Part shown: positions 7,894 through 36,248 of the stretch, piece by piece | Numbering within the stretch: the first letter of the stretch is position 1 | Layout: the number at the start of each line of letters is the position of its first letter | Source: Streptomyces sp. NBC_01298 | GTDB lineage: Bacteria; Actinomycetota; Actinomycetes; Streptomycetales; Streptomycetaceae | Reading direction: 5' to 3' | Assembly (NCBI RefSeq): GCF_035978755.1 | Contig: NZ_CP108414.1 | Span: forward strand, 5,084,001-5,148,000 | Length of the DNA: 64,000 nucleotides | The notes under the pieces: generated by a model | Database searches by the model: none | Seen by the model: only the letters and a program-made list of their open reading frames with translations | Told to the model about the DNA's origin: nothing | Made by a program: the position numbers and the translations under genes

Positions 7894-8090
7894 GGGTTCT
7901 ACACGGGTTCGACACGGGGATCATCACTCGTTTGGACCGAAATGTGATCCATCTCGCGGTTCGGACGGCTGTCTCAACCCCCCGGACCTTCGGTTACAGT
8001 CTTGAACAACGCGATGGCCCACCGCATGCCGGGGGGCCCGCGTACAAACGCACCGGCGCGCCACAGAGCGCGTGTGCCGGTGCCATACCG

Positions 8091-8248
8091 CTCATCCAGA
8101 GGGGCAGAGGGACACGGCCCGTTGAAGCCCCGGCAACCCTCCAGTCGGTTCTCGCGATCGCGCATTCCAGCGCCGCCAGCGAGGTCCCCGGCTAGGGAAG
8201 GTGCCAAATCCGTCTCATGGCGAAGTGCGCCATGGGGAAGATGAGGAG
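8091..8248 (+). ncRNA. SAM-I (S-box) riboswitch of thrC
   Basis: The leader contains the SAM-I core: CATCCAGAGGGGCAGAGGGA, then GGCCCGTTGAAGCCCCGGCA, then AAGGTGCCAAATCC. The last is followed by a P4 hairpin (CATGGCG/CGCCATG, 8216-8234). P1 would pair CTCATC at 8091 with GATGAG at 8240-8245. The 3' strand of P1 runs into AGGAG (8244-8248), the likely ribosome-binding site of thrC, so SAM binding should hide it and block translation. Confidence 0.92.
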
Positions 8249-8264
8249 AAAGGGCCTCGCCATC

Positions 8265-9575
8265 ATGGCTGCACAGTCTGTCGCAACCTCTGCCGAAACC
8301 GTTGAGAACATCGCTTCGGGTACCTCCGTCGATCTCGGTCCCGCCACCGGCCTTTCCTGTCGTGAGTGCGGTACCCGCTTCGAGCTCGGCCCGATCTTCG
8401 CCTGCGCCGAGTGCTTCGGACCGCTCGAAGTCGCCTACGAACTGCCCCTGGGCGACCCGGAAGCCCTGCGCGCCGCCATCGAGGCCGGCCCGAACAACAT
8501 CTGGCGCTACGCGCCGCTGCTGCCCGTCCCGGCGGACGTGGCCTCCAAGCCGAGCCTGAACCCCGGCTTCACCAAGCTCGTGGACGCGGCCAACCTGGCC
8601 AAGGAGCTCGGCTTCACCGGCAAGCTGTACGTCAAGGACGACTCCGGCAACCCGACGCACTCCTTCAAGGACCGCGTCGTGGCCATCGCCGTCGAGGCCG
8701 CCCGCGCCTTCGGCTTCACCACCCTCTCCTGCTCCTCCACCGGCAACCTGGCCGGCGCCGTCGGCGCCGCGGCCGCCCGTGCCGGCTTCCGCTCCTGCGT
8801 GTTCATCCCGCACGACCTGGAGCAGGGCAAGGTCGTCATGGCCGGTGTCTACGGTGGCGACCTGGTCGGCATCGAGGGCAACTACGACGACGTCAACCGC
8901 TTCTGCTCCGAGCTCATCGGCGACCCGCTGGGCGAGGGCTGGGGCTTCGTCAACGTCAACCTGCGCCCGTACTACGGCGAGGGTTCCAAGACCCTGGCGT
9001 ACGAGATCTGCGAGCAGCTCGGCTGGCAGCTGCCCGACCAGATCGTCATCCCGATCGCGTCCGGCTCGCAGCTCACGAAGATCGACAAGGGTCTGCAGGA
9101 GCTGATCAAGCTCGGCCTCGTCGAGGACAAGCCGTACAAGATCTTCGGCGCCCAGGCCGAGGGCTGCTCCCCCGTCTCGACCGCCTTCAAGGCCGGTCAC
9201 GAGGTGGTCCGCCCGCAGAAGCCGAACACCATCGCCAAGTCGCTGGCCATCGGCAACCCGGCGGACGGCCCGTACGTCCTGGACATCGCGCGCCGCACCG
9301 GCGGGTTCGTCGAGGACGTCAACGACGAGCAGGTCGTCGAGGCCATCAAGATCCTCGCGCAGACCGAGGGCATCTTCGCCGAGACCGCGGGCGGCGTGAC
9401 CGTCGGCGTGACGAAGAAGCTCGTCGAGAACGGGCAGCTCGACCCCGCGCTGACCACCGTGATCCTGAACACCGGTGACGGCCTCAAGACCCTGGAGGCG
9501 GTGGCCGCCGACAGTGGCCAGACCGCCACGATCCGCCCGAGCCTGGACGCGTTCCGCGCCGCCAACCTCGCCTGA
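8265..9575 (+). CDS. thrC: Threonine synthase
   Basis: ThrC converts O-phosphohomoserine to threonine with pyridoxal phosphate. The 436-aa protein opens with a short zinc-ribbon-like segment (CRECGTRFE...CAEC), then the PLP site GNPTHSFKDR (Lys Schiff base), SSTGNLAGAVGAAAAR, and VIPIASGSQLTKI. The ATG at 8265 is chosen because an upstream in-frame ATG lies inside the riboswitch; the P1/SD element GAGGAGAAAG is 12-21 bases upstream. The cysO-like gene follows after 35 bases and probably shares the transcript. SAM-riboswitch control ties this branch-point enzyme to methionine/SAM status. Confidence 0.95.
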   Translation: MAAQSVATSAETVENIASGTSVDLGPATGLSCRECGTRFELGPIFACAECFGPLEVAYELPLGDPEALRAAIEAGPNNIWRYAPLLPVPADVASKPSLNPGFTKLVDAANLAKELGFTGKLYVKDDSGNPTHSFKDRVVAIAVEAARAFGFTTLSCSSTGNLAGAVGAAAARAGFRSCVFIPHDLEQGKVVMAGVYGGDLVGIEGNYDDVNRFCSELIGDPLGEGWGFVNVNLRPYYGEGSKTLAYEICEQLGWQLPDQIVIPIASGSQLTKIDKGLQELIKLGLVEDKPYKIFGAQAEGCSPVSTAFKAGHEVVRPQKPNTIAKSLAIGNPADGPYVLDIARRTGGFVEDVNDEQVVEAIKILAQTEGIFAETAGGVTVGVTKKLVENGQLDPALTTVILNTGDGLKTLEAVAADSGQTATIRPSLDAFRAANLA

Positions 9576-21589: not shown

Positions 21590-22597
21590 TCACGCAGCGG
21601 CGCGGCCCCACCTCATCCGCGACCACGGCAGCGCCAGCTCGCTCCGGCCGGTCACCTCGCGCGGGGCGAGATCGGCGATCGGGGCGGCCTCGCGGTGCCT
21701 CGCGTAGACGGTGTCCACGTAGCGGTGGCCGGTGTCGGGGGCGATGAAGAGGACCGTGCGGTGCGGTGAGCGCTCGCGCTCGTGGCGCGCCGCGAGGTAG
21801 CCGGCGCCGGTGGAGAGCCCGGCGAAGACCGCGTGCCGGCGCAGCAGGTCGACGCTTCCGGCGAGGGCGGCGTCGAAGGAGATCCAGTGCAGGGTGTCGT
21901 ACAGCTCGTGCGAGACGTTCCCGAAGGGGATGGAGCTGCCGATCCCGGCGATGATCATCTCGGGGTCGGTGACGTGTTCCGAGCCGAAGGTGACGCTGCC
22001 GTACGGCTGGACGCCGACGAGTTCGACGTCCGACGTGTCGGCGGCGTCCTCGCGGAGGTAGCGGGTCAGGGCGCCGGTGGAGGCGCCCGAGCCGACTCCG
22101 CCGACGACGGTGAGCCCGGCCGCCGTCGTGCCGACGGCCTCGCGGATCCGGTCGGCGATCGCGCGGTAGCCGAGGTAGTGGACGTCGTCGTGGTACTGGC
22201 GCATCCAGTGGTACCCGGGGTGCTCGGCGAGGATCTCGTGGATCCGCTCGACGCGCCGCTTCTGGTCGAGCTTCAGGTCGCCGCACGGTTCCATCTGCTC
22301 CAGCGTCGCCCCGAGGACGGCCAGTTGGGTCCGCAGCGTGTGGTCCACGGTGGCCGACCCGACGATGTGGCAGCGCAGGCCGTACCGGTGGCAGGTCAGG
22401 GCCAGGGCGTACGCGTAGATCCCGCTGGAGCTGTCCAGCAGGGTGTCCCCGCGGCGTACGACGCCGGTGTCGAGCAGGTGGCGCACCGCCGCGAGGGCGG
22501 AGACCACCTTCATCGTTTCAAAGCGCAGGCAGACGAGCCGGTCGTCGAGGCGTATCAGGTCCGGCCGGCCGATCGACTCCGCGATGTGCTGGTCCAT
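21590..22597 (-). CDS. PLP-dependent cysteine-synthase-family enzyme (SbnA-like)
   Basis: A 335-aa fold type II PLP enzyme. IGRPDLIRLDDRL aligns with the IGNTPLVRL start of O-acetylserine sulfhydrylases, Lys30 (FETMKVVSALA) takes the Schiff-base position, DSSSGIYAYALAL replaces the TSGNTG loop, and VGSGASTGALTRYL is the phosphate-binding glycine loop. The altered active-site motifs mean it is not housekeeping CysK; a beta-replacement on O-phosphoserine or O-phosphothreonine is plausible because the upstream gene encodes a GHMP kinase. AAGGAG lies nine bases before ATG 22597. The kinase gene overlaps its first 80 bases. It is the last gene of the operon. Confidence 0.8.
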   Translation of the reverse strand: MDQHIAESIGRPDLIRLDDRLVCLRFETMKVVSALAAVRHLLDTGVVRRGDTLLDSSSGIYAYALALTCHRYGLRCHIVGSATVDHTLRTQLAVLGATLEQMEPCGDLKLDQKRRVERIHEILAEHPGYHWMRQYHDDVHYLGYRAIADRIREAVGTTAAGLTVVGGVGSGASTGALTRYLREDAADTSDVELVGVQPYGSVTFGSEHVTDPEMIIAGIGSSIPFGNVSHELYDTLHWISFDAALAGSVDLLRRHAVFAGLSTGAGYLAARHERERSPHRTVLFIAPDTGHRYVDTVYARHREAAPIADLAPREVTGRSELALPWSRMRWGRAAA

Positions 22598-23552
22598 GGT
22601 GGGGGATCTCCTTCGCAGGGGTGGTGCCGGTCGTGAAGGTGCGGGTGGCGGGGATGCCGTGGGCGGATAGGGCGCGCAGGCAGCCGCGGACGCGGCGGCG
22701 CAGCCCCGGGGCGGCCTGGTCGAAGAGCACGCCCGCGACCGCGCCGCTGTGCGCGATCTGTACGCCGACCGCCCCGGACCGGTGGGCGAGGGCGGCGAGC
22801 GTGTCGAACTCCGGGTGGCCGAGCACCTCTTGGCCGCGCCGTGCGCTGGCGGTGGCGACCGCGCCGAGCAGTTCCGCGCTGCCGGTGGCCACGGCCCGGC
22901 GCAGCAGCGCGCGCAGCCGCTCGTAGGCCCGTACGTCGCTGCGGTCCACGTCGGCCACGTCGGCCACCGGCAGCGCCAGGGTGTCGACGGGCGCGCCCCC
23001 GCCGAGGGCGCAGCCCACCACGACCAGCGGCGGCAGGGCCGGGCCGAGCACCTCCAGGACCCGGCCCTCCCGCTGGGCGAACAGCACCGGGCGGCTGCCC
23101 AGCATCAGCGGATCGGAGGCGAGCTCGGCGCGCACGGCGAGCGCGGCGACCGTCGAGGGGTCCAGCCGCAGCCCGTACGAGTCCGCGACCGCGCGTACGG
23201 CCGCGATCACATCGCTGCTGGAGCTGCCCATGCCCAGGCCCACCGGTATCCCGCCGGTGAGCCGCAACTCCCCGCCGCAGGGCGGCCGACCGGTCCGCCG
23301 CGCGCACTCCGCGACCGTGAGGGCCGCGGCCCGCGCCGCCTTCGTGCGGTCGGCGGGTACGACGGTCAGCGCCTCGGGCGGCGTGCCGGGACGGCGGACG
23401 TACGCGGCGCTGCTGCCGGGGCCCGCCATGGGCAGGGTGACCAGTCCGGCGCACCTGCGCCCGGCGGCGTCGAGGAAGACGCCCTGGAGGATCTCGCCGT
23501 GGTGGCAGGGGGCCCGCCCGGTGCCGGGAGCGTCCGTGGCGCCGGGGTTCAC
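22518..23552 (-). CDS. GHMP-family kinase, PduX-like (amino-acid kinase candidate)
   Basis: A 344-aa kinase. It begins APCHHGEILQGVF, the motif position of L-threonine kinase PduX (CPASCGELLQG), and has the GHMP ATP motif GLGMGSSSSD. PduX makes O-phospho-L-threonine for cobalamin. No cobalamin gene is nearby, so here phosphorylation of serine or threonine for the following PLP enzyme is inferred. GTG 23552 overlaps the upstream stop (GTGA). The 3' end runs 80 bases into the PLP gene in another frame; this is unusual but the reading frame stays open with normal codon use. Confidence 0.75.
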   Translation of the reverse strand: MNPGATDAPGTGRAPCHHGEILQGVFLDAAGRRCAGLVTLPMAGPGSSAAYVRRPGTPPEALTVVPADRTKAARAAALTVAECARRTGRPPCGGELRLTGGIPVGLGMGSSSSDVIAAVRAVADSYGLRLDPSTVAALAVRAELASDPLMLGSRPVLFAQREGRVLEVLGPALPPLVVVGCALGGGAPVDTLALPVADVADVDRSDVRAYERLRALLRRAVATGSAELLGAVATASARRGQEVLGHPEFDTLAALAHRSGAVGVQIAHSGAVAGVLFDQAAPGLRRRVRGCLRALSAHGIPATRTFTTGTTPAKEIPHHGPAHRGVDRPAGPDTPRRPARLPAL

Positions 23553-24388
23553 GCGCCGCCCGCCGTCCGGTAGCGGTACAGGACCGTCTCCTCGGCGCTG
23601 AACTGGGAGAAGGGGAAGGGCTCCGCGGACAGGGCGCTCACCCCGGAGCCGAGGAAGGCGCGGGCCACGGCGCTGCCGGTCTGCGCGTAGACGACCAGCG
23701 GGATGCCCCGGGAGCGGCAGCGCTCCAGGATCGTGTCGAAGGTGCCGTTGCTCAGGGTCATCCCGGTGGCGACGACGGCGTCGGCGGTGTCCAGTACCTC
23801 GTGCATGTCGTCGGTGACCGGGTCGCCCCACTGGGTGGCCCTGAGGTTGAGGTCGCAGGGGAGCGGACGTCCGCCGCGTGCGCGGATCGCCGCCACGAGC
23901 GGGTTGACGACCCCGATGAGCCCGACCGTGGCGCCCTCCTCGATGTCGAGCAGTCCGGCGATGGCCGCGTCCCGTGCCCCGGCGCGGACCTCCGGGGTGC
24001 CGGCGGGGAGGGTGACCGGCTCGGCGTCGCCCTCCCCGGCCGCCACGCGGTGGGGGCGGGTCTCGGAGAGGTAGGCGTCGAGGGCGGCGATCCGCAGCGG
24101 GCGGGGGGCCTCGCGCAGGAGGACGTCGAGGGGGGTGCCGGAGGAGTCGCGGCAGACGGAGGGGTCGATCTCGCCGGCCTCGAAGGCGCAGCCGCCGAAG
24201 GATCCGCCGAGGCGGACCAGGACGTACTGGTTGAGGTAGGTGGTGTCGCCGCCGGCCAGGCGGGTGCCGTGGTGGATCCAGAACACGCTGGTGGCGACGA
24301 GCGAGGAGGGGAGCGGGCCGTGCTCGCCGGCGAGTACGGCCGAGAGGAGCGCGTCGACGGAGGTCGCGGGGGTGGTGGTGGGGGTCAT
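23549..24388 (-). CDS. DUF364/DUF4213-like Rossmann protein (putative metal-chelation domain)
   Basis: A 279-aa protein with the C-terminal pattern of the DUF364 'heavy-metal chelation' family: ATVGLIGVVNPLVAAIRARG, DTADAVVATGMTLSNGT and LERCRSRGIPLVVYAQTG. The N-terminal half (SVFWIHHGTRLAG, YLNQYVLVRLGGSFGGCAFE) looks like the DUF4213 enolase-like extension. Function is unproven in the family. Its place between a siderophore-type ABC transporter and two amino-acid enzymes suggests a role in making or handling a metal ligand. ATG 24388 has AGGA upstream; a GTG at 24403 overlapping the ATPase stop (GTGA) is also possible. Confidence 0.72.
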   Translation of the reverse strand: MTPTTTPATSVDALLSAVLAGEHGPLPSSLVATSVFWIHHGTRLAGGDTTYLNQYVLVRLGGSFGGCAFEAGEIDPSVCRDSSGTPLDVLLREAPRPLRIAALDAYLSETRPHRVAAGEGDAEPVTLPAGTPEVRAGARDAAIAGLLDIEEGATVGLIGVVNPLVAAIRARGGRPLPCDLNLRATQWGDPVTDDMHEVLDTADAVVATGMTLSNGTFDTILERCRSRGIPLVVYAQTGSAVARAFLGSGVSALSAEPFPFSQFSAEETVLYRYRTAGGA

Positions 24389-24399
24389 GGGGTTCCTGT

Positions 24400-25209
24400 T
24401 CACAGAGCGGTGTGGGGTGTCGGCATCGGCGCCGGTGTGCGTACGGGGAGCGGTCCGCGGTAGCTGACCTGCGGGTGTCCGAGGGCGTCGGTGGTGAGTT
24501 CGGCGTCCACTTCGAAGACCTCGGCGAGCCGCCGCGGCGTCAGGACGGCGGCCGGCGGGCCGGCGGCGATCAGGCGGCCGTGGTGCAGGAGCAGCAGCCG
24601 GTCGCAGTACCGGGCGGCGAGCGACAGGTCGTGCAGGGCGACCAGGACCGTCTGGGGGGTGGCGGCCAGCAGTTCCATCAGTTCGAGCCGGTGTTTCACG
24701 TCGAGGTGGTTGGTGGGTTCGTCGAGCAGGAGCCCGGACGGCTGTTGGGCCAGCGCGCGGGCCAGGTGGGTGCGTTGCCGCTCGCCGCCCGACAGGGCCT
24801 TCCAGGGGCGGTCGGCGAGCGCGGTGAGCCCTACGCGTTCCAGCGCGGCGGCGACCACGGCCCGGTCGGTGGCGTCGGGCCCGCGCCAGCGGTCGCGGAA
24901 GGGGGTCCGCCCCAGGCCCGCGATGTCGGCGACCGGCAGATCGCCGTCCGCGCCCGCGTCCTGCGCGACGAAGGCGACCCGCCGGGCGATCCGGCGCGCA
25001 CTCCAGCCGCGCACGGACTCCCCGTCGTACCGGACCGCGCCCGCGTCGGGAGTCCGCAGCCCGGCCAGGCAGCGCAGCAGCGAGGACTTGCCCGAGCCGT
25101 TGGGGCCGAGCAGTGCGACGGTCTCGCCGGGGGCGATGTCGGCGCCGACCCCGCGCACGACGGGGGTGCCCGCCACCGACCAGCTGAGGTCTTCGGCGGT
25201 GATCCTCAC
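24400..25209 (-). CDS. Siderophore/metal-chelate ABC transporter ATP-binding protein
   Basis: A 269-aa FecE/BtuD-type ATPase powering the permease encoded just upstream. Walker A is GPNGSGKSS, the Q-loop FVAQDAG, the signature LSGGERQR, Walker B LLLDEPTNHLD and the H-loop LHDLSL. GTG 25209 overlaps the permease stop (GTGA); the longer reading from 25326 lies inside the permease gene and is rejected. Confidence 0.93.
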   Translation of the reverse strand: MRITAEDLSWSVAGTPVVRGVGADIAPGETVALLGPNGSGKSSLLRCLAGLRTPDAGAVRYDGESVRGWSARRIARRVAFVAQDAGADGDLPVADIAGLGRTPFRDRWRGPDATDRAVVAAALERVGLTALADRPWKALSGGERQRTHLARALAQQPSGLLLDEPTNHLDVKHRLELMELLAATPQTVLVALHDLSLAARYCDRLLLLHHGRLIAAGPPAAVLTPRRLAEVFEVDAELTTDALGHPQVSYRGPLPVRTPAPMPTPHTAL

Positions 25210-26342
25210 AGTTCCCCCCGCTTGCGCAGGACCAGCAGGAAGATCGGTACGCCGAGCAGCGCCGTGATCACGCCGACGGGCACCTCGCGGGGTCCGAAGG
25301 CGATCCGTGCCAGCGCGTCCGTCCACACCAGGAACACCGCGCCCGCCAGGGCCGCGTAGGGCAGCAGCACCCGGTGCAGCGGCCCGACGAGGAACCGCAC
25401 CCCGTGGGGGACGATCAGCCCGACGAAGCCGATGGCGCCGACGGTGGCCACCGCGACCGCGGTCAGCACGGCGGTGACCACGAGCAGCAGCATCCGCGTG
25501 CGCCGTACGTCGATCCCCAGGGACGCGGCGGTGTCGGTGCCGAAGGCGAGCCCGTCGAGGGCGTTCGAGCAGAGCCAGGCCGCCGCCAGCCCCAGCGGGG
25601 TGACGACCGCGCAGACCGCGACGGTGTTCCAGCGGGCGGGCGCCATCGAGCCCAGGAGCCAGTGGGTGACGGCCCGGGTGGTGTCCGCGTCCGCCGAGGC
25701 CATCAGGACGAGCGAGGTCAGCGCGGTGAAGAGCTGCCCGATGACCACGCCGGTGAGGACGATGCGTACGGAGTCCAGCCCGGTGCGCCGCAGGAGCAGC
25801 AGGAGCAGCCCGAAGGAGAGCAGCGCTCCGGCGAGCGCTCCGCCGGTGACGCCGAGGGTGCCCGCGCCGATGCCGAGGACGACCACGGTGACGGCTCCGG
25901 CGGAGGCGCCCGAGGAGACGCCGAGCAGGTAGGGGTCGGCGAGGGCGTTACGGGTGACCGCCTGGAGCACCGCTCCGCACACGGCGAGGGAGGCGCCGAC
26001 GAGGGCGGCCATCAGCACGCGCGGCAGTCTCAGGTCCCAGACGAGCGAGTCCAGGAGCGGGGGCAACGGCGCGACGTCCAGGCCGAGTCGGCTGCCGAAG
26101 ACGCGGGCGAGCCCGGTCCAGCCCACGTCGGCGGCGCCGATCCGTACCGCTGCCGCGACCGAGGCGGCCAGGACGGCGGTGGCGAGGAGGAAGAGGCCCG
26201 CCCCCGTCGCCGCGGACCGGCGAGGGGCCGGGCCCGGCCCCCGCGGGGCCACCGGGTCGGCGGGCACCGGGTTGGTGGGCACGGAGTCGGCGGGCACCGG
26301 GTCGGTGGGTACAGGATTCGCCGCTACGGCGTCAGCGGACAT
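25206..26342 (-). CDS. FecCD-family ABC transporter permease
   Basis: A 378-aa inner-membrane permease of the iron-siderophore/cobalamin import family, working as a homodimer. About nine to ten hydrophobic segments are present, with family motifs such as LPRVLMAALVGASLAVCGAVLQ, NALADPYLLGVSSGASAGA and IGFVGLIVPHGVRFLVGP. The N-terminal 45 residues are an unusual repeat of NPVPTDPVPADSVP-type units (a Pro/Asp-rich cytoplasmic tail). It overlaps the binding-protein gene by 11 bases. Confidence 0.93.
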   Translation of the reverse strand: MSADAVAANPVPTDPVPADSVPTNPVPADPVAPRGPGPAPRRSAATGAGLFLLATAVLAASVAAAVRIGAADVGWTGLARVFGSRLGLDVAPLPPLLDSLVWDLRLPRVLMAALVGASLAVCGAVLQAVTRNALADPYLLGVSSGASAGAVTVVVLGIGAGTLGVTGGALAGALLSFGLLLLLLRRTGLDSVRIVLTGVVIGQLFTALTSLVLMASADADTTRAVTHWLLGSMAPARWNTVAVCAVVTPLGLAAAWLCSNALDGLAFGTDTAASLGIDVRRTRMLLLVVTAVLTAVAVATVGAIGFVGLIVPHGVRFLVGPLHRVLLPYAALAGAVFLVWTDALARIAFGPREVPVGVITALLGVPIFLLVLRKRGEL

Positions 26343-27360
26343 ACCCGAGGTCCTTCATCCCGGCCGCCAGCAGCCCCAGGGCGTGCACGGAGCGCACCGA
26401 GGGGTCGAGTTCGATGCCGGGCACTTCGAGGATCTTGGCTTCGCGGACCGCGGCGAGCTTGGAGACGACCGGGTGCCCGGTCATGGCGGCGCGCTTCTCG
26501 GCGGCGCTGTCGCCGGGACGGCCGCGCTCGGACAGGTCGCCGATCACGATGAAGTCGGGGTCGCGCTCGGCGACTTCCTCCCAGGAGACCTCCGGCCAGT
26601 CCTCGTCGACGTCGTCGAAGGCGTTCTTCGCGCCGACGATCCGGCTCATCTCGCTGGGCAGGCCGGTCTTCCCCGCCACGTAGGGCATGCCGTTGAAGAC
26701 GGAGTAGAGGTAGACCACGGTGGGCTGTCCGGCGCCGCCGGGCACCTTGGGGGAGTTCCGCGCGGCCTTGGCGACGGCCGCGCGCTGGTCGGCGGCGAGT
26801 TTCCCGGCCCGCTCCTCGGCGCCGAAGACCTTGCCGAGGTTCTCGTAGTCGGAGAAGAGCAGCTCGAAGGGGGTCCGGCCGGCCGGGTTCTGTCCGGGGC
26901 AGTCCACGGCGCTGACGAAGGTCGGGACCTTCAGGGCGGCGAGCTCCTCGCGGGTGCCCGCCCGGTCCTTGGTGAAGAGGTCCGCGGAGCCGCCGATGAC
27001 GAAGTCGGGGGTCGCGGCCCGCAGTTGCTCGCCGGTCGCGATCTTCGGGGCGATGACCGGGATCTTGGCGTACGCGGCCCCGTACGCGGCGGGGATCTTC
27101 GTCTTGAGGTTGGCGGTGCCCGCCATCGAGTCCTGGAGCCCGAGTTCGAGCAGGGTCTCGGTCGAGGTCTGGTCCAGGGCGACGGCCCGCTGCGGCGGCG
27201 CGGCGAAGGTCGCCTGGCGGCCGCAGCTCGTGACGGCGGTCGCGGTGGAGGGGGTGGAGGCGGTGGAAGGGGTCTTGGCGTCGTGGGCGGCGGGTGCGGA
27301 GCAGGCCGCGGTGGCGAGGGCGAGGGTCAGGGCGATGCCGAGGCGGGCGGGGTGGCGCAT
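26332..27360 (-). CDS. Siderophore-type substrate-binding lipoprotein (TroA/FepB fold)
   Basis: A 342-aa surface lipoprotein with signal peptide and lipobox ATAAC|S at about residue 20. The class III binding-protein layout is visible: PPQRAVALDQTSTETLLELG, then PDFVIGG, the long linker helix region, and DPDFIVIGDLSERG. It feeds the FecCD permease encoded after it with 11 bases of overlap. It is first in the six-gene operon. ATG 27360 directly precedes the signal peptide; the longer upstream reading crosses the divergent promoter and was rejected. Confidence 0.9.
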   Translation of the reverse strand: MRHPARLGIALTLALATAACSAPAAHDAKTPSTASTPSTATAVTSCGRQATFAAPPQRAVALDQTSTETLLELGLQDSMAGTANLKTKIPAAYGAAYAKIPVIAPKIATGEQLRAATPDFVIGGSADLFTKDRAGTREELAALKVPTFVSAVDCPGQNPAGRTPFELLFSDYENLGKVFGAEERAGKLAADQRAAVAKAARNSPKVPGGAGQPTVVYLYSVFNGMPYVAGKTGLPSEMSRIVGAKNAFDDVDEDWPEVSWEEVAERDPDFIVIGDLSERGRPGDSAAEKRAAMTGHPVVSKLAAVREAKILEVPGIELDPSVRSVHALGLLAAGMKDLGYVR

Positions 27361-27451
27361 GGGTTCTCCGGTCTGGGCGGGGCGGGGCGGGTGGAAGCGA
27401 ATGTGGGCGTTGTCGTGCACCGGGCAAGAGCGCTGCGTTCGAGGGGTACTG

Positions 27452-27472
27452 TAATGGTATTCATTTTCATTA
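27452..27472. promoter_or_regulatory. Zur/Fur-like operator between the transport operon and exporter
   Basis: TAATGGTATTCATTTTCATTA, an A+T-rich imperfect palindrome in a region otherwise about three-quarters G+C. On the minus strand it reads TGAAAATGA, the half-site of Streptomyces Zur boxes (TGAAAATGATTTTCA type); the other half is degenerate. It sits in the shared divergent promoter and could control both directions in response to zinc or iron. Confidence 0.6.
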
Positions 27473-27529
27473 AGAACCCCGGGGGGTGGTTCGCCGGGCC
27501 CCCTCCCCTCCCCAAGGAGCAGTCGCACC

Positions 27530-28789
27530 ATGGCAACCACACCCGCGCCACCGGCGCCCAAGTCCGTTGACCCGCGCCCACGTTCGGTCCTGCTTGACGT
27601 GTCGTTCCTGCGCCTGTGGGCGGGTACCACCGCCTCCGGACTCGCGACCTGGGCCCTGCCCTTCGTCCTCGGGCTCGCCGTCCTCCACCGCGACCTGAGC
27701 GCCGCCGGCCTCGGTCTGGTCCTCGCCGCGCGCACGGTCGGCTTCCTCGCCGCCGTCACCGTCGGCGGCGTCCTGGCCGACCGGCACTCCCGCCGCGCGG
27801 TCGTCCTGTGGTCGGCCCTGGCGGCGGCGGCCGCAGCACCCCTCCTCGCGGCCGGACTGGGCCGCTCGCTCCTGCTGATGACGGCCGCCGCAGCCCTCGC
27901 CGGGGCCGGACAGGGCGCCTGCCGCCCGGCCTTCCAGGCGCTCACCGCCGAGACCGTCGACCCCGGGCGCCGTCAGCAGGCCAACGCCGCCATGACCATG
28001 GCCGTGCGCGGATCCACCCTCGCCGGACCCGCCCTGACCGCGCTGCTCGCGGGCTTCCTCGACGTCTCGACCCTGCTGCTCGGCATCGGCCTGCTGTGGC
28101 TGGTCGCCGCGCTGGTCCCGGGCAAGGGCCGGGGCGTCGCCGCCCGTGCCGTCACCGCGCCGCGCGCGAGCTTCCGCACCGAGTTCCTGGAGGGCGTACG
28201 GGAGGCCCGCCGCCACCCCTGGTTCCTCGCCGGACTGGCCGCCCTCGTCGCGGTCATCGCCCTCGGCTACTCCGCCACCAGCGTCGCCCTGCCCCTGATC
28301 AGCCGGGACCGCTACGCCGGCGCATGGGTGCTCGCCGCGGCCATGACGGCCTACATAGTGGGCGCGCTCGGCGGAGCCCTGGTCATCGCCCGCTGGCGGC
28401 CGCGCTCACAGGGCTGGGCCGCCTTCGCGGGACTGGCGGCGTACGGCTGCGCCCCGCTGAGCCTGACGCTGCCCGTGCATCCGGGGGTGGTCGTGGCCGC
28501 CTACGCCGTCGCCGGGACCGGGATCGAACTCTTCAACGTGCCCTGGTTCACCGCCACCCAGCGCGAAGTCGCCCCGGAGCGGCTGGCCCGCGTCTCCTCG
28601 CTGGACTTCCTCGTCTCCTACGGTCTGGCCCCGGTCGGCCTCGCCCTGATCGCCCCGGCCATCGACGCCTTCGGCGTCACACCCGTCCTCGGCGCCTGCG
28701 CGGCCGCCTGCTTCCTCGTGCCGGCGGCTGCGGCCCTGGTCCCGACGGCCCGCCACTTCGCGCGGAGCGCCCCGGCGCCGGTGGCCTGA
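27530..28789 (+). CDS. MFS exporter, EntS-like (MFS_3)
   Basis: A 419-aa major-facilitator protein with 12 predicted membrane segments. The family opening is SFLRLWAGTTASGLATWALP, followed by GGVLADRHSRRAVVLWS (motif A) and GAGQGACRPAFQALTAETV. The enterobactin-exporter group to which this pattern belongs usually secretes siderophores. It is divergent from the metal-chelate import operon, sharing the promoter with the Zur/Fur-like box, so it probably exports the product of the kinase/PLP/DUF364 enzymes. AAGGAG precedes the ATG. Confidence 0.87.
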   Translation: MATTPAPPAPKSVDPRPRSVLLDVSFLRLWAGTTASGLATWALPFVLGLAVLHRDLSAAGLGLVLAARTVGFLAAVTVGGVLADRHSRRAVVLWSALAAAAAAPLLAAGLGRSLLLMTAAAALAGAGQGACRPAFQALTAETVDPGRRQQANAAMTMAVRGSTLAGPALTALLAGFLDVSTLLLGIGLLWLVAALVPGKGRGVAARAVTAPRASFRTEFLEGVREARRHPWFLAGLAALVAVIALGYSATSVALPLISRDRYAGAWVLAAAMTAYIVGALGGALVIARWRPRSQGWAAFAGLAAYGCAPLSLTLPVHPGVVVAAYAVAGTGIELFNVPWFTATQREVAPERLARVSSLDFLVSYGLAPVGLALIAPAIDAFGVTPVLGACAAACFLVPAAAALVPTARHFARSAPAPVA

Positions 28790-28890
28790 GCCGCGTTGGG
28801 CCGTGGCGGTGGCCGTCCCCGGCCGTCCGGGGGAACGGCCGGAACGGCCGCGTCGCGGTCCGCCCCTTCCGCAGCCCGGCGTGGGCATCG

Positions 28891-28925
28891 TCGTCTCGTC
28901 GTCGTTGACGACGACGACGAGACGA
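28891..28925. terminator. Perfect hairpin between MFS exporter and GYD protein
   Basis: A perfect 15-bp inverted repeat of CGT/ACG triplets (28891-28905 with 28911-28925, 5-nt loop), 100 bases after the exporter stop and 16 before the next ATG. It may terminate the exporter transcript or restrict translation of the next gene. Confidence 0.6.
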
Positions 28926-28940
28926 AAGAAGGTGGACGCG

Positions 28941-29279
28941 ATGCCGCTGTATCTGTCGAGGTTCAGCTACACGCCGGAGACCTGGGCGAGGCTGACGGCC
29001 CATCCCGAGGACCGCTCACAGGCCGCCAAGTCGTACATCGAGTCCGTCGGCGGGAAACTGCACGGCTTCTGGTACGCCTTCGGCACGCACGACGGCTACA
29101 ACCTCTGGGAGGCCCCGGACGACGTGTCGATGGCCGCGGTCGCGCTGGCGATCAGCGGGGGCGGCGCGCTCAGCTCGTTCGAGACGACGGTCCTCCTGAG
29201 CATCGACGACACCCTGGACGCCCTCCGCAAGGCCAAGCGGATCCGCTACCGGCCTCCGGGCACCTCCGACACGCCATGA
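28941..29279 (+). CDS. GYD-domain protein
   Basis: A 112-aa small soluble protein of the GYD family (DUF3303-like dimeric alpha/beta barrel). The family pattern is visible in YLSRFSYTPETWARL, KSYIESVGGKLHGFWYAFGTHDGYNLWEAP and the final IDDTLDALRKA. Function is unknown in the family. ATG 28941 follows AAGGTGG. It converges with the PIN toxin gene. Confidence 0.85.
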   Translation: MPLYLSRFSYTPETWARLTAHPEDRSQAAKSYIESVGGKLHGFWYAFGTHDGYNLWEAPDDVSMAAVALAISGGGALSSFETTVLLSIDDTLDALRKAKRIRYRPPGTSDTP

Positions 29280-32369: not shown

Positions 32370-32492
32370 TCAGCGGCCCACGGGGACGGGAGCCGCGTCC
32401 GGTACGGGTGCGCCGGCTGCGGCCGGTGCGGCCTCGGGGGCCGGCTCCGCGTCCGGGGCGGCGTTGAACTCCTCCAGCATCTGGTGTGTTAA
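32370..32492 (-). pseudogene. Displaced 3' end of murP (original C-terminal codons)
   Basis: The minus strand reads an open frame ending ...QMLEEFNAAPDAEP...VPDAAPVPVGR and a stop at 32370. It lacks a start and ends abruptly where the mobile element begins. The segment (L)T-x-Q-M-L-E-E-F-N matches the position of FTRLLCTSLN at the present end of MurP, and both continue into Ala/Pro-rich tails. It lies on the same strand and beyond the element, where an insertion in murP would leave the original end. This is inferred, not proven; a comparison with an uninterrupted murP would settle it. Confidence 0.65.
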
Positions 32493-32526
32493 CTGCACCT
32501 TCTCCGGCTCGTTGGGCAGGGCGACG
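32493..32526 (+). repeat. Left end repeat of the mobile element
   Basis: CTGCAC at 32493-32498 and AGGGCGACG at 32518-32526 recur, inverted, at the other end with 17 instead of 19 bases between them. Confidence 0.65.
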
Positions 32527-32551
32527 TGTCCCCCGCTCAAGGAGAGCCCGC

Positions 32552-33754
32552 GTGAAACCGAACCTGCACCACGACCTGATCGAAGGCCGGGCCGATGTGC
32601 CTCGCCTCGGGTCGGTGGCCAAGCTGGAGACCCAGCACCCGCCGTACGCCGTCCTCACCGCGTCCGGTGAGGTGGTCGAGCCCGCCCTTTCGTACCTCCG
32701 GGACCTGGCGCTCAGCGACAACAGCCCGCTGACCGGCCGCAGCTATGCGCATGACCTTCTGCGCTGGTTCCGGCTGCTGTGGTTCCTCGATCTGCCGTGG
32801 GACAAGGCGTCCGAGGCGGAGGCTGCCGCCCTCGTGGGGTGGCTCCGTACGGCACCCAACCCGCAGCGCCGCCGGAGCAGTCCTGACTCGCCACGGCCAG
32901 GGTCGGTGAACATCCGCACGGGTAAGCGGTACCTCCAGGCCGGCTATGCGCCGAGCACGATCAACCACGCATTGACCGTGGTCAGCAGCTTCTACGCCTT
33001 CCACCGTCACTACGGACGTGGCCCGCTGACCAACCCCGTCCCGGAGTCGCTCGCACAACGAAGGGCGCTGGCGCACCGAAACTCCACCGAGCCGGCGCAG
33101 CCATTCCGGCGGGCACGGCTACGGCAGCGAGTGTCGAAGGGCGACCCAAGGGCGATTCCCGACGTTCTGTGGGACGAGTTCTTCGAAGCGATGACGCATG
33201 ATCGGGACAGGGCCGCTGTCCTGCTCTACGTCTCCAGCGGTGCCCGAGCCGAAGAGCTTCTGGGGGTCACCCCGGCCGATATCGACTGGTCACGGCAGGT
33301 CTTCCACGTGATCTCCAAAGGGACCAAGGAACGGGACCCCGTACCGGCCAGCCCGCAGGCCCTCATCGTGCTCGCGGCCTACCTCGACTCCATCGGCCTG
33401 CCCGCGGCTCACGAGCCCGTGCTGCGGACGCGGCGCGGCCCCGACAAGCCCCTGAGTTACTGGGCGATGCGCCGGGTCGTCCAGCGGGCCAACGCGAAGC
33501 TCGGTACGAACTGGACGCTGCACGATCTTCGCCACACGGCAGCCAGTCGTATGGCGAACGACCCGAACCTGACCCTGACCGAGGTCCGGGCGATCCTCCG
33601 GCATGCGGACTTGGCGACCACGGGCCGCTACCTCAATGCCCGCGTCGAGGACCTCTTCGATGCCCTGCAGGAGCACTACAACCGGCCCAAGGTCGTGCGC
33701 AGTATTGCGCCTGGCTACGACGAGGACGACTTCAAGGCGGTGTTCGGTGCCTAA
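32552..33754 (+). CDS. Tyrosine recombinase/integrase 1 (TnpA-like)
   Basis: A 400-aa site-specific recombinase with the full catalytic set: Arg232 (SSGARAEELLG), Lys256 (VISKGTKERDPVP), His324-x-x-Arg327 (LHDLRHTAASRM), His351 (RHADLATT) and nucleophile Tyr360 (GRYLNA). The N-terminal half has a SAM-like core-binding domain (RSYAHDLLRWFRLLWFL). GTG 32552 follows AAGGAGAG by seven bases; it begins 59 bases from the element end. The next recombinase overlaps it by eight bases. In Tn554-type systems such pairs act together. Confidence 0.93.
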   Translation: MKPNLHHDLIEGRADVPRLGSVAKLETQHPPYAVLTASGEVVEPALSYLRDLALSDNSPLTGRSYAHDLLRWFRLLWFLDLPWDKASEAEAAALVGWLRTAPNPQRRRSSPDSPRPGSVNIRTGKRYLQAGYAPSTINHALTVVSSFYAFHRHYGRGPLTNPVPESLAQRRALAHRNSTEPAQPFRRARLRQRVSKGDPRAIPDVLWDEFFEAMTHDRDRAAVLLYVSSGARAEELLGVTPADIDWSRQVFHVISKGTKERDPVPASPQALIVLAAYLDSIGLPAAHEPVLRTRRGPDKPLSYWAMRRVVQRANAKLGTNWTLHDLRHTAASRMANDPNLTLTEVRAILRHADLATTGRYLNARVEDLFDALQEHYNRPKVVRSIAPGYDEDDFKAVFGA

Positions 33755-36248
33755 CCGTCAAACTCCCGACACCTACACCGCGCGAAACCGCCGCGTCGCC
33801 TCCTACCGAGAGGGTGCACGGCCAGAGGCGCCAACGAGCCGGTTCTCCACTGCGTCCGTGAAGGCCGCACCGGCACCGCGGCCAGAGGTCCCGCCGGCGC
33901 CGTTCGGGGATCTCTCCCGGGCGACGTTGGAAGAGGTCCGGGAGATCGCCACAGGAGCACTCAAGGGGCGTTCAGACCGTTCCCACGCGAACAAGCGGCG
34001 CCGTGGAATGAACATGCTGCTCGCCCACTTGGAGACACTGCCAGGGGAGACCTGGCAGCAGCGGTGGGAGGCGAGCGGCTTCGACGGCGAGAACGCGCCC
34101 TCGGTCAACATCCTCGCGCGTGAGGGGTTTCAGTACGACGGCTTCGACCTGATCACGGCCGCCAAGATGGCCTTCTGCCTTCGGGTGGTCCAGCCGTCGG
34201 TGTCAGGCTTCCGCGCCAACAAGTTCACGCGGTACGCCGAGCCCTTTCGGGAGATCCAGAACGACCCACTCCTGGACCGGTTCTTCGAGGCCGTTGACGG
34301 ACACCCCACGATGGGACACGTCCACAAGGCACGTGCGAAGTTCGATCTCACCTGCGCGCTGACCACTCAGGGCATCGCACTCGAAGATCTGACGCCTGCG
34401 GCTCTGCTGCACTACTCGCTGGAGTCGAAGCGTCTCGGGCTGACCCACGGGGCCAACAAGAACCACAATCGCTTCGCTGCGCTCGGTGCCTGGCAGTTGC
34501 TCCACGCCATGGAGCACTTTCCGGCTGAGACGCCACCGACGCTCAGGACGTTCGTGTACACCGGTCAGCGGACGATCGAGGAACTGGTGGACCGCTACGC
34601 GATCAAGAGCCTCTCAGTCCGACAGCTGTTGATCGACTACCTGACCCGCAGGCGGGCGGAGACTGACTACGTCACCGTCACCGGCCTTGCTCGGAACCTG
34701 GCCAAGCACTTCTGGGCCAAAATCGAGGAGCTCAGCCCGGGACACCCTGACCTGGTCCTCGGCCAAGACCTCTACGACCAATGGCGAGCCGAGCTCCAGA
34801 CGTGCACCACTGGTGGCGGCCGGGAGCTGAGGAAGCGCCTGGACCCGGAATCCATCCTCCTTGCCGTTCGCGGCCTCTACGTCGACCTCCACAGCTGGGC
34901 TGTCGAAGAGCCGGAGCGGTGGGCGCAGTGGGTCGTTCCGTGCCCCATCCGTCCGCAGGATCTGAAGGGGTTCGGGAAGCGCAGGCGGGAGATCAATCGG
35001 CGAATGGCGGACCGGGTCCGCGTCCGGCAGCCGCTCCTGCCCGCGCTGGTGGCCCACGTAGAAGCACGCCACGAGTTCTACGCCGGTCTGCTGGATGCCG
35101 CTCGCCCGATCGCGCTCGGTGAGGAGTTCATCCACCAAGGGCGCCGTTACCGGCGCCGGAACTCCGACTATGACCGGCGCATGGCTGCGGCGGAGGCAGA
35201 GCCGGCGGTGAGGATCACGGAAGAGGAATCGGGTGAGCGGATCAACGTGACCGTTGTCGAGGACTCCGCCTTCTGGGAGTGGGCGGCAGTCGAGGTGCTG
35301 CGGCACAGCGGAATCCGGGTGGAGGAACTCTGCGAGCTCACGCACCTGAGCATCCGCCAGTACCAACGGCCTAACGGCGAGGTCATCGCCCTGTTGGTGG
35401 TCGCGCCGTCGAAGAGCGAGCGCGAGCGAGTGATTCCGATGTCGGCCGAGTTGTTCCACGCTGTCGCGCAGATCCTTCGCCGTCATACGCGCAACGGCAG
35501 GACCATCCCCCTCGTGACCCGGTACGACCCGCACGAACGGACATGGTCGGAACGGATGCCTTTCCTCATGCAGCGGCACCTCGGGACTGCGATCGGTGTC
35601 ATGTCTGGCGCAACGGTGCTGGCCATGCTTGGCCGCAGCTGCAAAGAGCTGGCCGAGACCAACCCCGCATTTGAGGATCTGACGTTCACCCCGCATGACT
35701 TCCGTCGGCTGTTCGCCACCGAGGTTGTCAACGGTGGTCTGCCGATCCACATCGGAGCTGCCCTGCTTGGTCACCTGAATCTGCAGACGACGCAGGGATA
35801 CGTCGCAGTATTCGCCGAGGATGTGGTCGGCCACTACCAGGCCTTCCTCAACCACCGGCGGTCTCTGAGGCCCGAGGTGGAATACGGCGAGGTCAGCCCA
35901 CAGGAATGGAACGAGTTCGAGGAGCACTTCGACAAGCGCAAGGTGGAGCTGGGCAACTGCGCGCGGCCCTACGGGACGCCCTGCCAGCACGAGCACGCCT
36001 GCATCCGCTGCCCCATGCTCCAGATGAACCCCAAGATGCTGCCGAGGCTCGCGGAGCTGGAGAGGGACCTTCTCCTGCGCCGCAAGAAGGCCGAGGAGGA
36101 GCAGTGGCTCGGCGAGATCGATGGCATCGACCTGACGCTGACCTTCCTCCGCACGAAACAGGCTGAGGCAGCTCGACTCACTCACCGTCCAGTGGTGGAG
36201 CTGGGCCTTCCTCGCCCCCGTCGTGAGCGGCCTGAGGCCGAGGCATAG
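33747..36248 (+). CDS. Large tyrosine recombinase 2 (TnpB-like, zinc-motif C-terminus)
   Basis: An 833-aa recombinase, far longer than most. The catalytic domain lies at about 500-690: HSGIRVEELCEL (Arg), SKSERERVIP (Lys), PHDFRRLFATE (His-x-x-Arg), GHLNLQTTQGY (His and Tyr nucleophile). After it comes a cysteine/histidine cluster (CARPYGTPCQHEHACIRCPM) of the kind seen in TnpB-type recombinases, probably zinc-binding, and a charged helical tail. The GTG start at 33747 overlaps the end of recombinase 1. The long N-terminal part is helical and may bind the element ends. Confidence 0.9.
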   Translation: MPNRQTPDTYTARNRRVASYREGARPEAPTSRFSTASVKAAPAPRPEVPPAPFGDLSRATLEEVREIATGALKGRSDRSHANKRRRGMNMLLAHLETLPGETWQQRWEASGFDGENAPSVNILAREGFQYDGFDLITAAKMAFCLRVVQPSVSGFRANKFTRYAEPFREIQNDPLLDRFFEAVDGHPTMGHVHKARAKFDLTCALTTQGIALEDLTPAALLHYSLESKRLGLTHGANKNHNRFAALGAWQLLHAMEHFPAETPPTLRTFVYTGQRTIEELVDRYAIKSLSVRQLLIDYLTRRRAETDYVTVTGLARNLAKHFWAKIEELSPGHPDLVLGQDLYDQWRAELQTCTTGGGRELRKRLDPESILLAVRGLYVDLHSWAVEEPERWAQWVVPCPIRPQDLKGFGKRRREINRRMADRVRVRQPLLPALVAHVEARHEFYAGLLDAARPIALGEEFIHQGRRYRRRNSDYDRRMAAAEAEPAVRITEEESGERINVTVVEDSAFWEWAAVEVLRHSGIRVEELCELTHLSIRQYQRPNGEVIALLVVAPSKSERERVIPMSAELFHAVAQILRRHTRNGRTIPLVTRYDPHERTWSERMPFLMQRHLGTAIGVMSGATVLAMLGRSCKELAETNPAFEDLTFTPHDFRRLFATEVVNGGLPIHIGAALLGHLNLQTTQGYVAVFAEDVVGHYQAFLNHRRSLRPEVEYGEVSPQEWNEFEEHFDKRKVELGNCARPYGTPCQHEHACIRCPMLQMNPKMLPRLAELERDLLLRRKKAEEEQWLGEIDGIDLTLTFLRTKQAEAARLTHRPVVELGLPRPRRERPEAEA

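Follow-up and report, generated by a model that had tools for sequence, protein, structure and literature searches.

To our knowledge, few bacterial zincophores are known. The opine-type zincophores staphylopine and pseudopaline are small, are made without a non-ribosomal peptide synthetase (NRPS), and are exported and then re-imported by an ATP-binding cassette (ABC) system. In the synthesis of staphyloferrin B, the amino-acid kinase SbnI feeds the pyridoxal 5'-phosphate (PLP)-dependent enzyme SbnA, which forms a diamino acid unit and has SbnB as its partner. Coelibactin is a Streptomyces NRPS product that is Zur-repressed and a putative zincophore, as given in the accessible text of PMC5472717. 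As a precedent for a zincophore made neither by an NRPS nor by an NRPS-independent siderophore (NIS) synthetase, we found ethylenediaminedisuccinate ([S,S]-EDDS), which is under Zur control. Its genes were located by way of Zur sites, and its structure points to neither of the two routes (PMC4993170, accessible part). Here, we analyzed a window of 64,000 nucleotides (G000:C1:5084001-5148000) within the 9.7-Mb genome of the soil bacterium Streptomyces sp. NBC_01298. It contains a six-gene operon for a substrate-binding lipoprotein, a FecCD permease, an ATPase, a DUF364 protein, a GHMP kinase and a PLP enzyme, and a divergent gene for a major facilitator superfamily (MFS) transporter. With a probability of about 0.7, this locus is a Zur-controlled zinc-metallophore system that is neither NRPS- nor NIS-based and has the DUF364 protein and the diamino-acid-type PLP enzyme at its core. 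The seven genes probably make, export and re-import a small zinc-binding molecule through a route not yet described.

Like the system for [S,S]-EDDS (aes), the locus combines Zur-type control and a PLP enzyme of the SbnA superfamily with the absence of NRPS and NIS enzymes: by Pfam, there is no NRPS or IucA/IucC-type (NIS) gene among the seven operon proteins. This agrees with the preliminary description of the locus, which had deduced an unusually simple product; the lack of both synthetase types has a precedent in EDDS. Unlike the EDDS-type set, the operon lacks the combination of OCD, decarboxylase and CysK-type PLP enzymes by Pfam. As in staphyloferrin B synthesis, a kinase is paired with a PLP enzyme, but the kinase is of the GHMP family instead of SbnI, there is no SbnB/OCD gene, and control appears to be by zinc rather than iron. 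Unlike the staphylopine and pseudopaline systems, the operon has no nicotianamine-synthase-like or opine dehydrogenase gene (Pfam). Finally, it shares with coelibactin the Zur-type control and the Streptomyces host, but none of its enzymes is an NRPS.

The gap between the lipoprotein and MFS genes contains a Zur-type box, TAATGGTATTCATTTTCATTA, which is a new observation, absent from the preliminary description. The box has 3 mismatches to TAATGAAAATNATTTTCATTA and is the single such site in the window, while the same scan gave none in 100 shuffles. The actinobacterial Zur motif is taaTGaNAANNNTTNtCANta and that of S. coelicolor is tGaNNatSatNNtCa, as presented in the available text of PMC5472717; counting by eye, the box is off the former at 2 of the 15 specified positions. 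Seven genomes were scanned with a 17-base core, ATGAAAATSATTTTCAT, allowing up to 3 mismatches. This core has two sites in the genome of NBC_01298, one in the operon gap and one where a ZnuA-family gene begins (PF01297, E 1.8e-82), so the locus shares its Zur-type site with znuA. The reversed 17-base pattern gave one site across the seven genomes (in G088) and 0 in the own genome, and with a stricter 21-base pattern the operon was the sole match in the own genome (control, 0). From the 21 core sites in the seven genomes, 7 are located at members of this locus family, with G006 contributing two, and 5 at znuA, two of these identified by Pfam and three read from near-identical sequence; one more lies before L33/L31 genes and another at L28/CobW genes. 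The L31 and CobW genes are Zur targets. Those named in the accessible text of PMC5472717 are znuA, rpmG and rpmB. Zinc control of the locus by a Zur-type site is strongly indicated by this distribution, and the gene set is apparently switched by the zinc sensor Zur. The earlier proposal of a metallophore system is well supported and narrowed to zinc by the box, and its interpretation as a whole is supported in part.

PduX makes a cobalamin precursor. Hence, one could argue that a PduX-like kinase next to a FecCD/BtuCD-type importer serves either the salvage of cobalamin or an iron siderophore. F420-0, EitC and corrinoid transporters are among the top NCBIfam models of the importer, each scoring under its cut-off (for the ATPase, the F420-0 and EitC importers). 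We consider an iron, cobalt or corrinoid system very improbable in view of the Zur-type box and of the kinase adjoining the PLP enzyme in 72 of the 80 related loci described below (two of these kinases being just 29-33% alike). Moreover, when we scanned the plus strand of the window with an iron-box consensus (DmdR/IdeR type), we found no match within 6 mismatches, the best one in the gap having 11; iron control was rejected on this basis.

A search for the gene set across actinobacteria, as the preliminary description had suggested, showed that it is widely retained. Using the DUF364 protein as bait in a collection of named species, we confirmed 272 loci and kept the best 80, which biases the set towards close relatives, and we counted genes within 8 kb of DUF364. 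The named loci that matched best are mostly from Streptomyces, and two close DUF364 homologues, P0082 and P0102, carry names from S. venezuelae. A PLP gene was present in 77 of the 80 loci, and the three without it (L082, L105 and L114) stop at contig edges. The GHMP kinase was found in 72 loci, an MFS gene in 75 (67 of the window type and 8 of another) and a FecCD importer in 72 (47 of the window type and 27 of a second type). Among the 66 loci in which a gap separates a divergent MFS gene from the operon, 62 carry the box at up to 5 mismatches and 56 at up to 4, compared to 0.000 of 66 for resampled gaps; six additional box sites lie elsewhere within those loci. Likewise, in a first genus sample, the box occurred with 2-5 mismatches in all ten loci having close orthologues. 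Because of the kinship among the species, the counts reflect retention and not independent origins. The enzymes and transporters travel together, and the recurrence of the set across dozens of species places the operon beyond chance.

Regarding the genus sample of 199 genomes, we obtained matches to the PLP enzyme in 81 (E <=1e-30), to DUF364 in 83 (E <=1e-20) and to the lipoprotein in 20 (E <=1e-60). The 83 genomes with DUF364 comprise 33 with at least 66% identity and 50 with a distant kind only (38-45%); G012 has both. A PLP gene was found in all 33 genomes with the close DUF364, in 32 of them no more than about 2 kb away on one contig (hand count); in G081 it lies on a different contig, at a contig edge. 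With a close DUF364 in 33 of 199 genomes, the system could be a common zinc-acquisition route in the genus. Regions were taken from the genus PLP search (40, namely 39 relatives and the own paralogue), from a family search matching 123 of 297 genomes (20 regions), and from the genus genomes with a distant DUF364 (10 regions of 51).

For the comparison with EDDS we used the genome G415, which we take to be that of Amycolatopsis japonica; the identification is our own. Its best Zur site precedes genes for an OCD, a decarboxylase and a CysK-type PLP enzyme; a gene that we read as MATE-like and a divergent amidase gene are there as well. This set fits EDDS chemistry. What we call EDDS-type genes are these genes, as assigned here, and not the published aes table. 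One could propose that the product of the window cluster is an aminopolycarboxylate already described, either [S,S]-EDDS or the related EDHA, since the regulator is the same, NRPS and NIS enzymes are likewise absent, the PLP enzyme belongs to the SbnA superfamily, and a window-type importer adjoins EDDS-type genes in one locus (L234, see below). Against this, the MATE-like exporter and enzymes at the G415 Zur site are of other kinds, and G415 gave 0 matches to a DUF364 of the window kind. Its EDDS-type PLP enzyme is 29.6% identical to that of the window over 274 residues; a closer G415 PLP enzyme (60%) is encoded elsewhere, in a boxless locus that contains FecCD-importer and ATP-grasp genes. 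In a comparison limited to the EDDS-type genes, the OCD (G415 query) was found in 0 of the 80 loci and the decarboxylase in 2. We rejected the window system as the EDDS cluster given the lack of such a DUF364 in G415 and the other enzymes at its Zur box, and the production of EDDS or EDHA is a most improbable explanation.

Several observations weigh against the reading of the locus as a zinc-metallophore system. The enzyme substrates are guesses, and the product, its metal binding and the expression of the genes are likewise predictions. Counted by eye, 2 of the 11 positions specified in the 15-base S. coelicolor motif differ in the box; both zero-mismatch matches to this motif in the genome lie outside the operon and the znuA site. 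Seven of the 21 core sites have no assigned target, and on reading we recognized no zinc gene at two such loci (L229 and L230). Four of the 66 divergent gaps are boxless at 5 mismatches, all of them outside Streptomyces (Actinophytocola, Amycolatopsis twice, and Umezawaea). Besides, the PLP enzyme is present in 16 of the 20 lipoprotein-bearing genomes and missing from 4. In three of the latter (L231, L232 and L233), the MFS and importer genes are kept with no enzymes, and the box is present in two of the three, so the task of the MFS may be uptake or recycling, and not export of an own product. The fourth locus, L234, has a decarboxylase, an OCD, a MATE-like protein and a PLP enzyme that are 43, 41, 39 and 50% identical to the EDDS-type proteins of G415, followed by a substrate-binding protein, a FecCD permease and an ATPase that are 39, 55 and 53% identical to those of the window, also with the box. 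This one locus suggests, by analogy, that the importer family of the window handles EDDS-like zinc chelates. The preliminary description had named conserved transporters lacking the enzymes as evidence against itself, and these four loci go part of the way in that direction.

Siderophore importers commonly take up the chelates of others, and we read L231-L233 as loci for the uptake of foreign chelates, with the importer as a separable module. Extending this to the window, the importer would take in foreign aminopolycarboxylate chelates of zinc, the enzymes would modify or degrade them in the cytoplasm so that the zinc is released, and the MFS would expel the remains. The retention of the MFS in the transporter-only loci, two of three with the box, and the presence of the same importer family beside a different, EDDS-type enzyme set speak for such scavenging. 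We nonetheless hold it to be unlikely: a kinase and a PLP enzyme of the beta-replacement type form a biosynthetic pairing that is also seen in other clusters, one of them (L050) beside an NRPS gene, and the enzymes occur with the second importer type in 27 of the 80 loci and are therefore not bound to one importer.

For the preferred reading, a zinc metallophore made by the locus, we infer the product, the chemistry of DUF364, the enzyme substrates and the directions of transport from protein family, regulation and analogy. When zinc is scarce, Zur would leave the box and both divergent arms would be expressed. The GHMP kinase would phosphorylate a hydroxy-amino acid, for example serine or threonine, and the PLP enzyme would swap the phosphate for the amine of an amino acid, yielding a diamino-polycarboxylate such as those formed at an early stage of staphyloferrin B and EDDS synthesis. 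These two steps are proposed because of the analogy with SbnI and SbnA and because kinase-PLP pairs are found in five other loci. DUF364 may act on the diamino-polycarboxylate and finish the chelator, replacing the SbnB or decarboxylase steps. The MFS would export or recycle the chelator, its retention in transporter-only loci favouring recycling as at least part of its task, and the lipoprotein-FecCD-ATPase importer, judging from its family and regulation, would return the zinc chelate. Our literature search gave no precedent for the combination of a threonine kinase and diaminobutyrate.

The DUF364 protein is the least familiar part of this scheme. Its AlphaFold model (pLDDT 87.8) matches the DUF364 structure 3l5o at E 6.2e-10 and also 3npg, other Foldseek matches being below TM 0.4; a sequence search of the PDB gave a marginal match to 3npg (E 0.008). 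The protein has the same two-domain fold as Dhaf4260 (3l5o) and PH1506 (3npg), but it is 15-16% identical to them and, unlike them, is associated with a PLP enzyme and with zinc control. In the literature that we found, DUF364 appears in two papers. In the accessible text of the 2010 structure paper, a deep pocket between the domains is proposed as the active site and a chelator-making role had already been put forward from context analysis (PMC2954201). In a second paper, a Serratia DUF364 gene is divergent to a pigment cluster, zinc being unmentioned in its accessible text (PMC4046660). We found no link between DUF364 and zinc in a search that did not reach most subscription journals, so a prior report is possible.

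To follow the pairing of DUF364 with the PLP enzyme, we built a PLP tree from 144 of 155 loci, dropping matches of up to 290 residues or with a stop, including three from the ATP-grasp loci described next (L235, L238 and L239). Linkage to DUF364 (109 rows) required 2 changes, compared to a mean of 31.7 when shuffled, on a tree made by a quick method with some long branches and an unreliable L234 row. The second DUF364-linked PLP group corresponds to a different operon, with an ATP-grasp ligase, a distant DUF364 and a CysK-type PLP enzyme, which was seen in all ten genus loci taken (L235-L244). A box with 4-5 mismatches lies upstream of the ATP-grasp gene in 7 of the 10 (0.0 when resampled), and the same set is found, boxless, in L212. 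This operon is probably another zinc-chelator system.

In a third arrangement, the PLP enzyme and DUF364 are accompanied by an oxygenase, another MFS and an S-adenosylmethionine (SAM) enzyme, F11, whose best PDB matches are N6AMT1. F11 is present in 31 of the 80 loci and a PhyH oxygenase in 2. The F11-PLP-DUF364-MFS operon of L036 is divergent from one for methionine salvage (MetK, MtnA, aldolase II and ARD domains), with two Zur-like boxes between them, and L143 is similar. By analogy, this layout hints at the release of methylthioadenosine, as in nicotianamine-type chemistry, and possibly at an aminocarboxypropyl transfer of that type. The SAM enzyme appears in related clusters only: F11 had 0 matches in the own genome at E 1e-10, and we rejected its acting from elsewhere in that genome.

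We give even odds to a broader reading in which DUF364 and a diamino-acid-type PLP enzyme would be the core of an actinobacterial class of zinc metallophores, mostly under Zur, with one chelating unit made by the pair and varied by a third enzyme: a GHMP kinase, an ATP-grasp ligase, a 2-oxoglutarate oxygenase, or a SAM enzyme accompanied by methionine salvage. If true, DUF364 would gain a function, and zincophores would have one more chemical route in addition to those through NRPS, opines and EDDS. The window system, taken as a variant of non-NRPS, non-NIS zincophore systems, has a fair chance of forming a separate class. There is practical interest in biodegradable chelators that resemble EDTA, as stated for EDDS in the available text of PMC9252823.

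The kinase-PLP pairs in five other clusters (L049-L052 and L056) are 44-47% and 29-35% identical to the kinase and PLP enzyme of the window, respectively, and may make diamino acids for peptides. Relatives of the PLP enzyme (60-62%) also lie beside FecCD, ATPase and lipoprotein genes with no DUF364 and no box in L183-L189 and L201, possibly unrelated siderophore clusters; in L188, an ATP-grasp ligase follows.

The coordinates of the locus are given in Table 1. All seven reading frames are open and each product fits the named family by Pfam; NCBIfam gave no match for DUF364 and backed the families of the other operon proteins. The overlaps and families reported earlier were confirmed: 11 bases between the lipoprotein and FecCD genes, 4 between FecCD and ATPase (start at GTG 25209), 4 between DUF364 and kinase, 80 between kinase and PLP, and 169 bases separating the lipoprotein start (27360) from the MFS start (27530). 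The DUF364 gene, described as coupled or within 12 bases, overlaps the ATPase gene by 4 bases if it starts at GTG 24403, or lies about 12 bases away if it starts at ATG 24388. The lipoprotein start and lipobox were read from the sequence, and its relatives are full-length from the same start.

Table 1. Genes and operator of the locus, with positions in the window
Feature	Position	Strand	Basis
SbnA-like PLP-dependent enzyme (PALP; superfamily level), 335 aa	21590..22597	-	Pfam PALP 1.3e-32
GHMP-family kinase, 344 aa, PduX-like in some source names	22518..23552	-	Pfam GHMP_kinases_N 7.4e-13
DUF364 (PF04016) protein, 284 aa, probable enzyme	23549..24403	-	Pfam 2.6e-11
ABC importer ATPase	24400..25209	-	Pfam ABC_tran 3.3e-33
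FecCD-family importer permease, 378 aa	25206..26342	-	Pfam FecCD 2.6e-87
Substrate-binding lipoprotein, 342 aa from ATG 27360	26332..27360	-	Pfam Peripla_BP_2 2.6e-27 (longer frame)
Zur-type operator TAATGGTATTCATTTTCATTA	27452..27472	no strand	Between the divergent lipoprotein and MFS genes
MFS transporter, 419 aa, putative chelator exporter or recycler	27530..28789	+	Pfam MFS_1 3.1e-30

Three of the names given in the preliminary description need narrowing. The PLP enzyme is SbnA-like at the superfamily level (PALP), with its lysine and glycine loops aligned with those of other PALP enzymes, but it is not SbnA by the curated cut-off, scoring 129.9 bits against TIGR03945 (cut-off 349.95). The 'EntS-like' transporter does belong to the MFS, and the label is a loose one, its MFS_3 score of 27.9 being barely above the cut-off of 27. 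The 'PduX-like' kinase holds as a GHMP protein: its Pfam match is to GHMP_kinases_N only, and the PduX grouping comes from the source names of homologues and has no model match. The close homologue P0219 is named 'uncharacterized protein involved in propanediol utilization', P0152 likewise with an incomplete name, and a PDB sequence search gave distant GHMP kinases only. DUF364 scores 43.8 bits in Pfam, compared to a gathering cut-off of 23.

Directly 3' of the MFS gene lies a GYD-domain gene (28803-29279, +), which is not one of the families that recur across the loci. Further downstream, two adjacent genes of the phage-integrase family (32486-36248, +; 422 and 881 aa) possibly belong to a mobile element near the cluster. 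Elsewhere in the window, a SAM riboswitch (RF00162, 74.7 bits; 8089-8247, +) extends into the reading frame 8217-9575, a gene of the PALP family that perhaps encodes threonine synthase.

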